Shown: in pieces, positions 2,391 to 21,873 of the stretch
Numbering within the stretch: position 1 is the stretch's first letter
How the letters are laid out: each line of letters begins with the position of its first letter
IMG/VR virus record: IMGVR_UViG_3300005617_000151
Location: 1 to 39,961 of that record
Length of the DNA: 39,961 bases
Reading direction: 5' to 3' (one strand)
From: a virus
Notes under the pieces: model-generated
Told to the model about the DNA's origin: nothing
The model's database searches: none
Seen by the model: the letters and a program-made list of their open reading frames with translations, nothing else
Program-made: the position numbers and the translations under genes

Positions 2391-4277
2391 ATGCCATTAG
2401 AAAGTAGCGCCACATATATAAATTCATTTAATCCTGCTTGGCCTGATGGAGCTGATCAGCGTTCAACTGCGGACGATCATATCAGATTGTTAAAGGGAGG
2501 AATACTTAGGACCTTTCCAAGTATTACGGGTGCTGTTTCGGTAGATCATAACGCATTAAACAGAACGCAATATTTAGCCAGTCTTTCATACAGTATTTTG
2601 ACTGGCGGGCTAATTGATACGACTAAATTTACATACCCCCAAACCGCCGCCGAATCTGCTGCGAGCGTGACGCCTGTTAATTTGTACATTCCATCACACG
2701 ATGTATGTGGATATTTGCTAGCAGATCGTTACGGTACTAATACGACTCCCGGCACGACGGACATGATTACCGCTATTAACAATATGTTCTTAGTGGCTAA
2801 ACAGTTAACACAGTCGCAGGTGTTGAATTACGTTGAATGCCGATTGCTGCCAGTTAAATACTACATCTCAACGCCTTTCCGCATGTTCACAGGGATAGAT
2901 TTTAACTTTGCTGGCGGCATGATCATTAAATCTACCAGCTCAACCATATCTAGCACTTTAACCAGCGTCTTAGTGTGTCTTGGTGGTGTTCGTCCTGGTG
3001 ATGTAAGCGGAAATATTAATTGCATTGGTTTGTGCGACGATGCTATCCGCGCTGATAAGGTTAAAATACGCAATGGATTTACAACTTCTAATGCATCCAA
3101 TTCAACTACCTCTTCCGTAACACATGGAATTGTTATACACGGCGCATCTAATTCAGTCATTGAGAATATGGAAATTGATTTATTGACTGGAGCGGGGATA
3201 ATCCAGACTGTTTGTTTTACCTCCACGATGAGTGATGTCCGCGTCTATAAAGCCAACCAAGCAACAGCTATTGAGAATGGCACCAGCATGACAATTAAAA
3301 ACTGTTATGCGGTTAACTGTCATAAATGGGGATTCTATATTCGTGACGTTAAATATACTACGTTTACCGCTAACGCTTGTGACAGTCTGAATAATATATC
3401 TAATTCTGCTGACTATACAGACAGAACTATTGATTCGTCTTGCTACATATTTGACGCATGTTATGGAGTTGTAGCAGAAGCGAACGGCGCAGAGCAATGT
3501 TTCGGCAGTTGGGTGAAATTCCTATCTGTTGAAAACGTCAGGTGGGCGAATAATGTTGCTATTGGACCTCAGTCAAGTTATACCGGTGCAAATCAAGTAG
3601 CGCTCTACTATGTAGATACATTGGGCCGTCGGTTAACGATTGAGAACAATCAGATTATGAGGTCGGGAACAACCGCTCTATCTGGCGGCGCTTCTGCTGC
3701 TGCGCATCATGACTTTTATTCTAATGCTACAACCAACCTAAGCGGCTTGCGGTTCATCAATAACTATATTGGTAACAACCTTTTTGACGCACCAAGCGCT
3801 ATTTACGGTAATAATAACCCTACTTACATTGACAGCACGTTTGTCGGCGCTCAACTCGCTGGGGTGTTTACACCTTCATTGAGCATGACCACTGCTACTA
3901 CTCCTGCCATTACTTACGGCTCTAGAAATACCGGCAGATTCTCGATCATCAACGGATTCATGCATGTTGATTGTTACTTACATGCAACCTCCATTACGTT
4001 CGGTGGCGCAATTGGGTTTATCAGTATTGGCGGATTACCTATAGTAAACGCTGCCGCAGATCAAGAAGACCTTATTTGTACTAAATCCGTAGGCGTTACA
4101 TGGCCTTCTACCGAGCCTTATTGGTGGACAGTGGACGCTGGATTTACGAATGGTCTGATACAGAACCGCACGCGCGGAACTGCATTAGGTACGGGCGCTT
4201 ATGTGACTGGAACCACAGACGTGGAATTCCATTTCGTGGGCGATGTTTACGTTGGTAACCCACCTCAATTCCCATGA
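2391..4277 (+). CDS. Tailspike with right-handed beta-helix (receptor binding / possible depolymerase)
   Basis: This is a 628-residue protein. Residues 25-57 carry the virion-anchoring motif STADDHIRLLKGG...TFPSITGAV...NALN, also present in the tail-fibre protein at 34796-35356. Residues of about 190-480 show short beta-strand repeats with ladders of Asn, Ile and Val (for example IENMEIDLLTGAGII, IKNCYAVNC, TIENNQIM, LRFINNYIGNN), typical of pectate-lyase-like beta-helices. The C-terminal 130 residues look like a separate beta-rich cap or trimerisation domain. By analogy with P22 gp9 it would bind or cut a surface polysaccharide; no catalytic residues can be assigned. There is no clear Shine-Dalgarno, and a 39-base gap follows the previous gene. 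It sits just before the lysis genes, away from the other tail genes. Confidence 0.85.
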   Translation: MPLESSATYINSFNPAWPDGADQRSTADDHIRLLKGGILRTFPSITGAVSVDHNALNRTQYLASLSYSILTGGLIDTTKFTYPQTAAESAASVTPVNLYIPSHDVCGYLLADRYGTNTTPGTTDMITAINNMFLVAKQLTQSQVLNYVECRLLPVKYYISTPFRMFTGIDFNFAGGMIIKSTSSTISSTLTSVLVCLGGVRPGDVSGNINCIGLCDDAIRADKVKIRNGFTTSNASNSTTSSVTHGIVIHGASNSVIENMEIDLLTGAGIIQTVCFTSTMSDVRVYKANQATAIENGTSMTIKNCYAVNCHKWGFYIRDVKYTTFTANACDSLNNISNSADYTDRTIDSSCYIFDACYGVVAEANGAEQCFGSWVKFLSVENVRWANNVAIGPQSSYTGANQVALYYVDTLGRRLTIENNQIMRSGTTALSGGASAAAHHDFYSNATTNLSGLRFINNYIGNNLFDAPSAIYGNNNPTYIDSTFVGAQLAGVFTPSLSMTTATTPAITYGSRNTGRFSIINGFMHVDCYLHATSITFGGAIGFISIGGLPIVNAAADQEDLICTKSVGVTWPSTEPYWWTVDAGFTNGLIQNRTRGTALGTGAYVTGTTDVEFHFVGDVYVGNPPQFP

Positions 4278-8173: not shown

Positions 8174-8583
8174 AACCGCCACCCATTCCCCTGTTTAAAC
8201 GCATGTGAATCAAAGCCAAATCGGTTTAGCATGACTTGATCCGCCTGTAGCCAGTACTGCTCCCACTGCTCCGCATTCATCGCCCTAAAGTTTATGTGCT
8301 TGGGTGATCGTACCTCAAAATCGGTACCTACAATTGGCACTACCACATAATGCCCTGCGAGTACTTTTATCTCATCGCTAATGCTTTCCTCGTCCCTCAC
8401 AGGGTCTTGATTTCTTCCAATCTCAGCACAGCAAGCCCAATACCATCTGTTGAATGCTGGACTGCGGGCACGCCTCATTTCAAGTTCGACAACCTCTCCA
8501 TCGGCTAGTCTACTAATAGACTTTTTGGCCTTATCGTCCATGCCAATGAGAGAATCACCGACCCTGATAAACCATTTACGCAT
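8170..8583 (-). CDS. Early protein, DUF1367/NinB-like character
   Basis: The 137-residue protein contains MRRARSPAFNRWYWACCAEIG near residues 36-56, which recalls the R-x-P-x-F-x-R/H motif of phage early proteins such as DUF1367 members near recombination genes. No catalytic motif is visible. It begins two bases after the ssb stop and ends overlapping the HNH gene (ATGA), so the recombination block ATPase-SSB-this gene-HNH is one transcript. Confidence 0.55.
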   Translation of the reverse strand: MRKWFIRVGDSLIGMDDKAKKSISRLADGEVVELEMRRARSPAFNRWYWACCAEIGRNQDPVRDEESISDEIKVLAGHYVVVPIVGTDFEVRSPKHINFRAMNAEQWEQYWLQADQVMLNRFGFDSHAFKQGNGWRL

Positions 8584-8585
8584 GG

Positions 8586-8993
8586 CTAAAATGGGTCATC
8601 GTCGAAATTATCCACCTCTGGCTCATATGGATGATCCTCCTTAGGTTCTTTACGCTCAGGCTTAGAACCTAGCATTTGCATTTCACGCGCCACAATCTCA
8701 GTGCTATACCGATCTTTGCCATTTTTGTCCTGCCATTTTCGAGTACGCAAGCTGCCCTCGATATAAACCTGAGAGCCTTTACGCAGATACTCGGCGGAAA
8801 TCTCGGCCAACTTCTCGAATAGCACGATTGCATGCCATTCAGTGCGCTCCTGCTTATCACCTGACTGCTTATCAGTCCATCCTTCTGTGGTAGCTACACG
8901 AATGTTTGTGACTGGCTTCCCACTCGGCATGTACCGAGTATCAGGATCAGCCCCAAGGTTACCCACAATAATGACTTTGTTTATGCCTCTCAC
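8586..8993 (-). CDS. ssb: Single-stranded DNA-binding protein
   Basis: The 135-residue protein is a full bacterial-type SSB: OB fold over residues 1-104, opening with [14 protein letters not shown], containing [14 protein letters not shown] and [16 protein letters not shown], then a short acidic linker and the C-terminal tip DDDPF that docks partner proteins. It would coat phage ssDNA during replication and recombination. The start codon is GTG 8993, overlapping the ATPase stop (GTGA), with GGAG seven to eight bases upstream. Linkage to a Sak4-like ATPase is a known pairing, since SSB stimulates Sak4 annealing. Confidence 0.95.
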
Positions 8994-20317: not shown

Positions 20318-20505
20318 ACGACGATCAAAAAATAATGATTATTCTCGGCTTTGCTTTACTTATCGCTTGCTCTGTAGCTTGGTATTGCAGAGACGACGAA
20401 GCAAAGGTGTGGCGTGACAAGTATCACAGTTCTGAGGAAGCCGCTAAAGAAGCAAAGAAATTGGCCGATTACAGATTAAGCTTATGCGTTAGGAGTAAAG
20501 AATGA
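20314..20505 (+). CDS. Single-pass membrane protein
   Basis: In 63 residues there is a hydrophobic helix at 8-24 (MIILGFALLIACSVAWY), then a charged helix rich in Ala, Lys and Glu. Starts MNDDQK, similar to the gene at 14650. ATGA overlaps at both ends. Function unknown. Confidence 0.55.
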   Translation: MNDDQKIMIILGFALLIACSVAWYCRDDEAKVWRDKYHSSEEAAKEAKKLADYRLSLCVRSKE

Positions 20506-20711
20506 ATATTGAACAAAATGAACCAGCATTCCCGATAAATATCGAGCAAGATCGTCCTTGGTATGGCCTAACCAAGCGTGAATACTTCGCTGCTATGGCG
20601 ATGGCCAGTCTTGCAGGCGCGCACGCTGATGGCGGATATTCATTAGCAGGCGTTGTCGCAAGACAGGCTGTAGAAAATGCCGATGCACTTATCGCGGAGC
20701 TAAATAAGTGA
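20502..20711 (+). CDS. Conserved phage protein with GLTKREYFAAMAM motif
   Basis: The 69-residue protein carries GLTKREYFAAMAM and AVENADALIAELNK, a pair of short motifs that recur in small proteins of many proteobacterial phages. No function has been assigned to them that I know of. ATGA overlaps join it to both neighbours. Confidence 0.65.
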   Translation: MNIEQNEPAFPINIEQDRPWYGLTKREYFAAMAMASLAGAHADGGYSLAGVVARQAVENADALIAELNK

Positions 20712-20899
20712 ACATTAACGAATTGCCAGAGATGTTCCATCAAAATGGAGACATGCGAATTAAAGCACTCGAAGCCCGATTAGCCTATGCAAAGTATCTG
20801 TTTCTATCCCATGAAATGCTGGTTGATGATAGAAAGAGCCAATTACATTCAGAAAAGATTGATGCATTCATCGAAAAGCTTAACTCGGAGGGATTATGA
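20708..20899 (+). CDS. 63-residue helical protein, unknown
   Basis: GTGA/ATGA-type overlap with the previous gene. The sequence (MRIKALEARLAYAKYLFLS) is helical with coiled-coil character. Function unknown. Confidence 0.52.
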   Translation: MNINELPEMFHQNGDMRIKALEARLAYAKYLFLSHEMLVDDRKSQLHSEKIDAFIEKLNSEGL

Positions 20900-21018
20900 A
20901 ACACAAAATCACCTTTAAGATTATCCGTGGCGAGTTGTACTATGTACTTGCTGGAGTAGCTTACAAATCACGAAAGGAGGCGTTTTGCGCATGGAGTGCG
21001 GTGGATGCAATGAATTAG
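20896..21018 (+). CDS. 40-residue hypothetical peptide
   Basis: ATG 20896 overlaps the previous stop and the frame ends at TAG 21016-21018. It begins MKHKITFKIIRGELYYVLAG, beta-like, then KEAFCAWSAV. It is the last reading frame before a 404-base non-coding stretch. Confidence 0.45.
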   Translation: MKHKITFKIIRGELYYVLAGVAYKSRKEAFCAWSAVDAMN

Positions 21019-21023
21019 AGATG

Positions 21024-21085
21024 CTGAGTCGCTCTCAGATGATTTCAGGAGACCGGGCTACCGGTGAAAGCGGCGAACCCTGAAA
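21024..21085 (+). ncRNA. Structured RNA upstream of tRNA-like domain
   Basis: Hairpin CTGAG-TCGCT-CTCAG (21024-21038) is followed by a nested element. The outer stem TTTCAGG (21043-21049) pairs with CCTGAAA (21079-21085), and the inner hairpin ACCGG-GCTA-CCGGT (21052-21065) is perfect. All stems are fully complementary. This is the 5' part of the non-coding block 21019-21422. Confidence 0.5.
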
Positions 21086-21124
21086 GAGAATGACAAAAAC
21101 AGCTGCACATGAATTAGATTTAAT

Positions 21125-21240
21125 GCGATATGTAGCTCAGAGCAACGCTGTTATATATTGAAAGCAGCTAGTCGGTAGACGAAAGGTAGAGCGCCTTTGC
21201 AAGAGGAGGTCGCGGGTTCAATTCCCGTCATATCGCGCCA
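21125..21240 (+). tRNA. tRNA-like RNA with expanded D region and CCA end
   Basis: An 8-bp acceptor stem forms between GCGATATG (21125-21132) and CATATCGC (21229-21236), followed by GCCA. The T arm is canonical: GCGGG, loop TTCAATT, CCCGT (21212-21228). D-stem GCTC (21135-21138) can pair with GAGC (21189-21192), but about 45 extra bases sit inside the D loop and form a hairpin of their own. The anticodon arm is four bases short: it reads CCT-TTGCAAG-AGG (GCA) or a TGC-centred loop. It is probably a degenerate tRNA or a tRNA mimic rather than a working tRNA. Confidence 0.5.
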
Positions 21241-21249
21241 TTTGAGTAT

Positions 21250-21327
21250 GCTGGATGAATAGTCAGCTATGAAGTCGGAACAGTGTGAAAGTCGAAAGGC
21301 CGCCCAATCCCGACCATCCAGCTTTTT
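21250..21327 (+). terminator. Three-way-junction RNA ending in T tract
   Basis: P1 GCTGGATG (21250-21257) pairs perfectly with CATCCAGC (21315-21322), followed by TTTTT (21323-21327). Inside are a hairpin ATAG-TCAG-CTAT (21259-21270) and a stem GTCGG/CCGAC (21274-21278 with 21310-21314). The T tract after P1 makes it a candidate terminator for the rightward early transcript. The remaining bases to 21422 show no gene. Confidence 0.5.
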
Positions 21328-21401
21328 GCACAATTGAGAGAAGTGGTGTTTGCCGTGACCATTGTAGTATGGCTTTAGGTATCTGAAATCATGCAAACGG
21401 C

Positions 21402-21416
21402 TTTTTAACAGTGAGG
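21402..21416 (+). repeat. 15-bp direct repeat carrying ribosome site, copy 1
   Basis: TTTTTAACAGTGAGG occurs here and at 21653-21667, each time just before a gene start. It contains the GAGG ribosome site, so the two genes downstream may have arisen with a duplicated leader. Confidence 0.7.
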
Positions 21417-21422
21417 TGATGC

Positions 21423-21659
21423 ATGAAAATTAGGCCAGCCGCTTCAATGTTGGGACTTGATGAATCAATGCAGCAGATTAGAGAGGTTGCTAATAAATCT
21501 GAATTAATGGAATACCTCAAAGACCGTTTTGATTATTGGAATCCCACAGAAGAAAACGTAACCATTGAGTTTTACAGCCATGACAAACGAATTAACTGGA
21601 ACACGCATCTGATTTGCATTGACGGTAAAGCGGCGCTGTTTTCAGATAGTAATTTTTAA
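21423..21659 (+). CDS. 78-residue hypothetical protein
   Basis: ATG 21423 is preceded by GAGGTGATGC. The sequence starts MKIRPAASMLGLDESMQQI and continues with a helix (VANKSELMEYLKDRFDYW), then beta-like sequence. It is the first gene after the structured RNA. Function unknown. Confidence 0.55.
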   Translation: MKIRPAASMLGLDESMQQIREVANKSELMEYLKDRFDYWNPTEENVTIEFYSHDKRINWNTHLICIDGKAALFSDSNF

Positions 21660-21667
21660 CAGTGAGG
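21653..21667 (+). repeat. 15-bp direct repeat carrying ribosome site, copy 2
   Basis: Identical to 21402-21416. It overlaps the end of the preceding gene and supplies the ribosome site for the GTG start at 21676. Confidence 0.7.
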
Positions 21668-21675
21668 GGAATGAA

Positions 21676-21873
21676 GTGAAGTTTAACTGCGGGCCAACTT
21701 GGGAAGAAAAGTTAAATGCAAGAGAGAAGTGGCATCCTTGGTTTGCATGGCGACCGATTAGACTAGGGTCGCGAGATTGTAGATGGTTTGAATATGTGTT
21801 GAGAAAAGGCAGATATGGTTATGGGTATTGGAATTGGGAATATAAAGCACCACCAGATAACGGAGAGGCGTAA
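21676..21873 (+). CDS. Small basic Trp-rich protein, GTG start
   Basis: The 65-residue protein starts at GTG 21676 behind GAGGGG. It contains HPWFAWRPIRLGSRDCRW and GYGYWNWEYK, a pattern (FAWRPV...R.W.E.V.R) frequent in small phage early proteins. Function unknown. Confidence 0.6.
   Translation: MKFNCGPTWEEKLNAREKWHPWFAWRPIRLGSRDCRWFEYVLRKGRYGYGYWNWEYKAPPDNGEA

Follow-up and report, generated by a model that had tools for sequence, protein, structure and literature searches.

Phage tRNA genes are usually taken either to supplement codons or to replace tRNAs that defence systems have cut. The tRNA fold can also be used without decoding, as in the tRNA-like structures of plant viruses, which lie 3'-terminally in RNA genomes and carry inserted extra domains. 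Phage T4 encodes two stable RNAs that are not tRNAs, C and D, beside its tRNA genes. GOLLD and ROOL are phage RNAs sometimes found beside or around tRNAs, and tmRNA (RF00023) has a tRNA-like end with a T arm. The window analyzed here, a 39,961-base phage contig (IMG/VR record) in which a P22-like portal, a terminase and a major head protein were identified, contains a complete cloverleaf of 116 nt at 21125-21240 (+). The original prediction of a tRNA-like domain with an 8-bp acceptor, a T arm and an encoded CCA is borne out here by sequence and complementarity, and a D stem is present too.

The window element shares the acceptor, D and T arms, the elbow nucleotides and the CCA with canonical tRNA (RF00005), and its descent from tRNA is evident; unlike a tRNA, it has a 13-nt anticodon arm and a 50-nt D loop with two hairpins. 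It resembles tmRNA in its T-arm end but lacks the tag ORF and pseudoknots and possesses a D stem and a small anticodon arm. With GOLLD and ROOL it shares phage origin and possible loop-loop contacts, but it is much smaller and the tRNA fold itself is its core. The likeness to plant-virus structures, which implies no relation, lies in the reuse of the fold and in the inserted domains, and the T4 RNAs C and D are comparable by description.

Known RNA families do not account for the window element

ARAGORN called no tRNA in the window, and no Rfam family matched it at gathering thresholds. GOLLD and ROOL were not found even at E values up to 10. Against the tRNA model RF00005 the gathering threshold (29 bits) was not reached in the window: the acceptor, D and T arms are present, but a decoding anticodon arm of 5 bp with a 7-nt loop is absent. 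A permissive Rfam scan matched only the T arm, at 13.5 bits to tmRNA (gathering threshold 47 bits). Weak matches to sR30 and HTH-XRE in the Rfam scans were attributed to chance. Among the papers searched, none described a phage RNA of such design. Since ARAGORN and the Rfam gathering thresholds skip the window element, RNAs of this kind may be common and uncounted; the element, a tRNA-derived RNA, has a fair chance of exemplifying such a broader class.

Anatomy of the tRNA-like domain

All features of the domain lie on the plus strand. The acceptor strands GCGATATG (21125-21132) and CATATCGC (21229-21236) are perfectly complementary over 8 bp, and can alternatively be drawn as 7 bp plus a -1:73 pair, as in tRNA-His. 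UA separates the 5' strand from the D-stem strand GCTC (21135-21138), which pairs with GAGC at 21189-21192. The D loop (21139-21188) is about 42 nt longer than usual, close to the roughly 45 extra bases originally estimated. It starts with AG and ends with GGTA, like the D loop of an ordinary tRNA, and so keeps the G residues that contact the T loop at the elbow. The insert of about 44 nt between these ends contains hairpin A (21147-21168), in which GCTGT and GCAGC enclose the 12-nt loop TATATATTGAAA, and the short hairpin B (GTC GGTA GAC, 21171-21180), which was found by folding.

A single G leads from the 3' strand of the D stem to the anticodon arm CCTTTGCAAGAGG (21194-21206), which has 13 nt instead of 17, the four-base deficit that had been claimed, and hence no usable anticodon. 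Three foldings can be drawn for the arm: 3 bp closing a 7-nt loop, 5 bp (one U.G) closing a GCA triloop, or a bulged stem capped by GCAA. No drawing gives a decoding arm of normal size. The variable region is AGGTC, followed by the T arm GCGGG TTCAATT CCCGT (21212-21228) and, after the acceptor, the discriminator G with the encoded CCA (21237-21240). The cloverleaf makes up only part of the predicted ensemble, with a probability of 0.37 for the D stem and 0.43 for the anticodon arm. The hexamer TGAAAG (UGAAAG in RNA) was noticed post hoc at 21065, 21081, 21159 and 21286, that is, four copies in about 220 bases, compared with 16 in the whole window.

An unrelated phage carries the same design with compensated helices

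IMG/VR was scanned with the pattern GTAGCTCAG N{30,60} GGTAGAGCGC, which recovered L086, a piece of a 42.7-kb contig. The element there, at 7764-7651 (-), is built of parts in the same order and of the same sizes as those in the window: an 8-bp acceptor (GTCGCACG/CGTGCGGC), a 48-nt D loop with the hairpin GCCGC-CATATCCTGAAA-GCGGC and a second hairpin, and a 13-nt anticodon arm, CCCTCGCGAGGGG. The variable region and T loop are identical, and the loop of hairpin A has the consensus YAUAUNYUGAAA. The second hairpin of L086 (CGGC CGCAA GCCG) differs in register from hairpin B and is not alignable with it pair by pair. The D stem is also kept, its letters having been fixed by the search pattern. 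L086 ends in ACTA and has no encoded CCA.

In the alignment of the two elements all 25 pairs stand, with six double and three single-sided changes and none broken. Four of the double changes fall in the acceptor, whose 8 pairs are all retained, one in hairpin A, which also has one single-sided change, and one in the anticodon arm; none of the six involves letters fixed by the search pattern. When pairing partners were slid out of register as a control, 0-3 double changes were obtained. A model built from the window element alone scored L086 at 94.5 bits (E 2e-22), and the best ordinary tRNA among the loci searched at 46.8 bits. Since L086 is the single true homologue found, this covariation is that of two sequences. 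The comparison shows that the predicted acceptor, D and T arms and the elbow nucleotides are kept, with the anticodon arm cut to a 13-nt hairpin, in a design common to two unrelated phages, and that in this fold the opened D loop presents two hairpins, the first with a loop of 12 nt. A long hairpin-bearing D loop, a non-decoding arm and compensated helices thus occur together in both elements. The shared design, with its pair-keeping changes, suggests that phages reused the tRNA fold for a non-decoding job.

A decaying tRNA pseudogene, its D loop enlarged by an insertion and its anticodon arm shortened by a deletion, was considered, since the sequence is clearly tRNA-derived, odd tRNAs are frequent in phage tRNA arrays, and relatives of the window terminase have working tRNAs at the same place. 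However, decay would break the stems first, whereas the L086 phage has both departures from tRNA, a similar insert loop and the six double compensations. We consider decay unlikely, and of the two options originally offered, a degenerate tRNA or a tRNA mimic, the conserved architecture without a decoding arm favours the mimic. Absence of homologues, or homologues with a plain tRNA and no insert, had been named as grounds for dropping the prediction; L086 retains both insert and covariation. An assembly artefact was ruled out by the same design in L086, and an excised intron in the D loop was rejected, as the arm would stay non-decoding.

The compensated arm also bears on whether the RNA associates with itself. 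Its loop is palindromic (UUGCAA in the window, UCGCGA in L086), and the palindrome survives a U-A to C-G switch, as would be expected if two copies kissed loop to loop; kissing loops in OLE and GOLLD were argued from such palindrome-preserving changes (PMC12286853). Yet only two sequences carry this signal, these letters would also form a GNRA-type cap (GCAA/GCGA) or a triloop, so that a simple capped hairpin suffices, and the palindrome is absent from the two further elements described below. We consider kissing highly improbable.

The two phages differ outside the element. No window protein was matched in the 14.8-kb stretch of L086 compared, which encodes RecE/RecT and a helicase, and the single significant blastn match between them covers only 21132-21227 (77% identity). 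With the match confined to the element, it appears to be a module shared without its surroundings that moves between phages. In L086 an open frame at 7937-7572 (-) encloses the homologue, and each end of this frame resembles a small zinc finger (CILC..CRMC and CDCG..CAAC); the element may lie across the junction of two small genes or within a single one as an insertion. Reading it as RNA is accordingly not exclusive there.

Further searches gave no second true homologue. A pattern of the exact anticodon-arm region had no match in IMG/VR, and blastn of the region against phages, E. coli genomes and plasmids gave only short tRNA-like matches. Two wider patterns, the 13-nt arm with the T arm and the D-loop insert with GAAAG, each had L086 as the sole true homologue, for the first among the matches listed. 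The covariance model R1, applied to 398 Pseudomonadota genomes, listed matches as long as ordinary tRNAs (71-89 nt) and scoring no more than 57 bits. L102, the single GTDB match, is not claimed as a homologue: about one chance match to that pattern is expected by our estimate, and folding disfavours its cloverleaf.

Flanking regions

The element region lies between small ORFs, ending at 21018, and a gene at 21423. The prediction that this region holds no good reading frame was not quite right, since a 40-codon ORF with a Shine-Dalgarno sequence ends at 21018 and a 30-codon ORF at 20991-21083 (MECGGCNELEML..., MECGGC...) follows a strong Shine-Dalgarno sequence, AAAGGAGG. The latter covers the two proposed 5' hairpins (21024-21085, +), whose region has only a modest folding advantage over shuffles (z -1.76, 12/200); they are doubtful and not supported as RNA elements. 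Stems 21043-21049/21079-21085 and 21250-21257/21315-21322 do exist, but the region contains about 20 inverted repeats of at least 6 bp, and as a whole it is not more stable than shuffles (z 0.27).

The 3' three-way junction, predicted by folding at 21250-21327 (+) with P1 21250-21257/21315-21322 and P3 21274-21278/21310-21314 and followed by T5, is significant on its own (z -2.84, 0/200), but it has no counterpart in L086 and was not found elsewhere. It is a possible 3' end of the RNA, its membership with the tRNA-like domain being unproven. Because no flanks of the window element are recognizable in L086, a single noncoding RNA comprising 5' hairpins, domain and 3' junction is likewise unproven. 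Given this weaker standing of the flanks, we restrict the claim to the tRNA-like domain, the part of the original prediction that the compensated homologue upholds, and regard the rest as possible context.

The position between the small ORFs and terS, together with the junction and T5, would also suit a cis-acting leader, in which the fold and U-tract junction regulate read-through or RNase P cleavage separates the small-ORF transcript from the downstream operon. In Pseudomonas phage AH02 the 390-nt gap that follows ninG and precedes the late genes holds a structured RNA of another kind. Against a leader, the junction with T5 is not a canonical terminator, no sigma-70 promoter match was present within 20400-21700, and the window's counterparts L086, L089 and L092 have their elements in gene contexts other than that of the window. 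We regard a leader as rather unlikely.

Other phages contain tRNA-like elements of similar architecture

A cloverleaf scan over the window and the compared loci gave 163 elements with a normal 17-nt anticodon arm and a handful of odd ones. Two of the latter, recovered by the same pattern scan as L086, are L089 at 3707-3821 (+), with a 48-nt D loop and the GNRA-capped arm CCCGGC GUGA GCCGGG, and L092 at 8534-8637 (-), with a 38-nt D loop and the arm CUACC AGG GGUAG. The former sits between terminase and portal genes that are on the opposite strand; the latter adjoins a tRNA. Both have, by their predicted folds, the architecture of the window element, a long D loop and an arm that cannot decode, but not demonstrable common descent.

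Three phage tRNA genes, L131 3624-3699 (-), L151 3048-3122 and L171 409-482 (-), combine ordinary D loops with 13-nt arms of either 5 bp and 3 nt or 4 bp and 5 nt. Many relatives of the window terminase have real tRNAs upstream of terL, and four of the relatives inspected have a different tRNA-like element there, with a long hairpin instead of the anticodon arm. In this element (L024 7372-7486, L026 5819-5938, L027 4976-5092, L029 7596-7712) the arm is replaced by GATGAG-[hairpin]-TTTTCATGC, and the acceptor stems covary (GAAGAAG/CTTCTTC versus GGACAGG/CCTGTCC).

A proposed route from tRNA fold to stable RNA

In the route that we propose, a transcript would pass through the 21125-21240 region, host RNase P would cut before G21125, and the CCA end would be matured or repaired as in a tRNA. 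RNase P recognizes the stacked T arm and acceptor, a U at -1, a G at +1 and an RCCA 3' end. All of these are present in the window, including the GCCA end, whereas L086 has ACUA in place of RCCA, judged from sequence only. The resulting stable RNA, protected like a tRNA, would act through the exposed D-loop hairpin, perhaps as a scaffold or decoy for a tRNA-binding factor; alternatively, cleavage at the element could separate the small-ORF operon upstream from the region that follows. The originally suggested roles, an RNA handle or a processing site, are likewise conjectural. The junction downstream, with its U tract, may determine where the RNA ends.

A more specific proposal is a counter-defence decoy, a tRNA shape without an anticodon loop that titrates host factors binding or cleaving tRNAs and that cannot itself be cut in the anticodon. 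Phage tRNAs, some with a changed anticodon loop, are known to counter defences that cut tRNAs (PMC10264068, PMC11555353); the tail of the tRNA is a further target (PMC12851939). Since the known cases are working tRNAs that replace cut ones (PMC10264068, PMC11555353), the decoy ranks only as a rival; moreover, no defence system or partner is linked to the window element, and the D-loop hairpins are left unexplained. We judge it quite improbable.

The best explanation is a tRNA-derived phage noncoding RNA domain selected for a role outside translation, and we give this reading, including the proposed processing and D-loop-hairpin action, about an even chance; the missing promoter match within 20400-21700 counts against it as well. 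If it is true, the conserved non-decoding fold means that phages keep the tRNA shape for another job. More tentatively, and with somewhat less confidence than an even chance, the element may represent a new class of phage RNA, non-decoding and tRNA-scaffolded, whose elbow bears functional D-loop hairpins and whose anticodon arm is only a cap, mobile between unrelated phages and using host tRNA maturation to become a stable effector.

A possible modular structured RNA in Pseudomonas phages

A separate structured frame, ..CCGATCCTCTCTATGAGAGCGCATCGGGGTGTGATCTG-[core]-CAGATCACACCCCGATGCGG, is common to Pseudomonas phages (L102 6290-6000 (-), L103-L106, L108-L110 and L283 33422-33812) and had no match in Rfam. 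Its outer helix varies while pairing is kept, for example GGTCTGCAATCTC/GAGATTGCAGATC and GATGTGTGATC/GATCACACATC, and the core is swapped, being tRNA-like in some phages and made of unrelated hairpins in others. The frame is located near cI, near RecE/RecT or after ninG, and looks like a mobile modular RNA. In cyanophage Cy-LDV1 (L107 1380-1660) the core of L102 and L109 (GTGACGGGGTTCCTAGGCC... with the tRNA-like domain) is enclosed by a different outer helix, GAGAGCTGGCGGCT/AGCCGCCAGCTCT.
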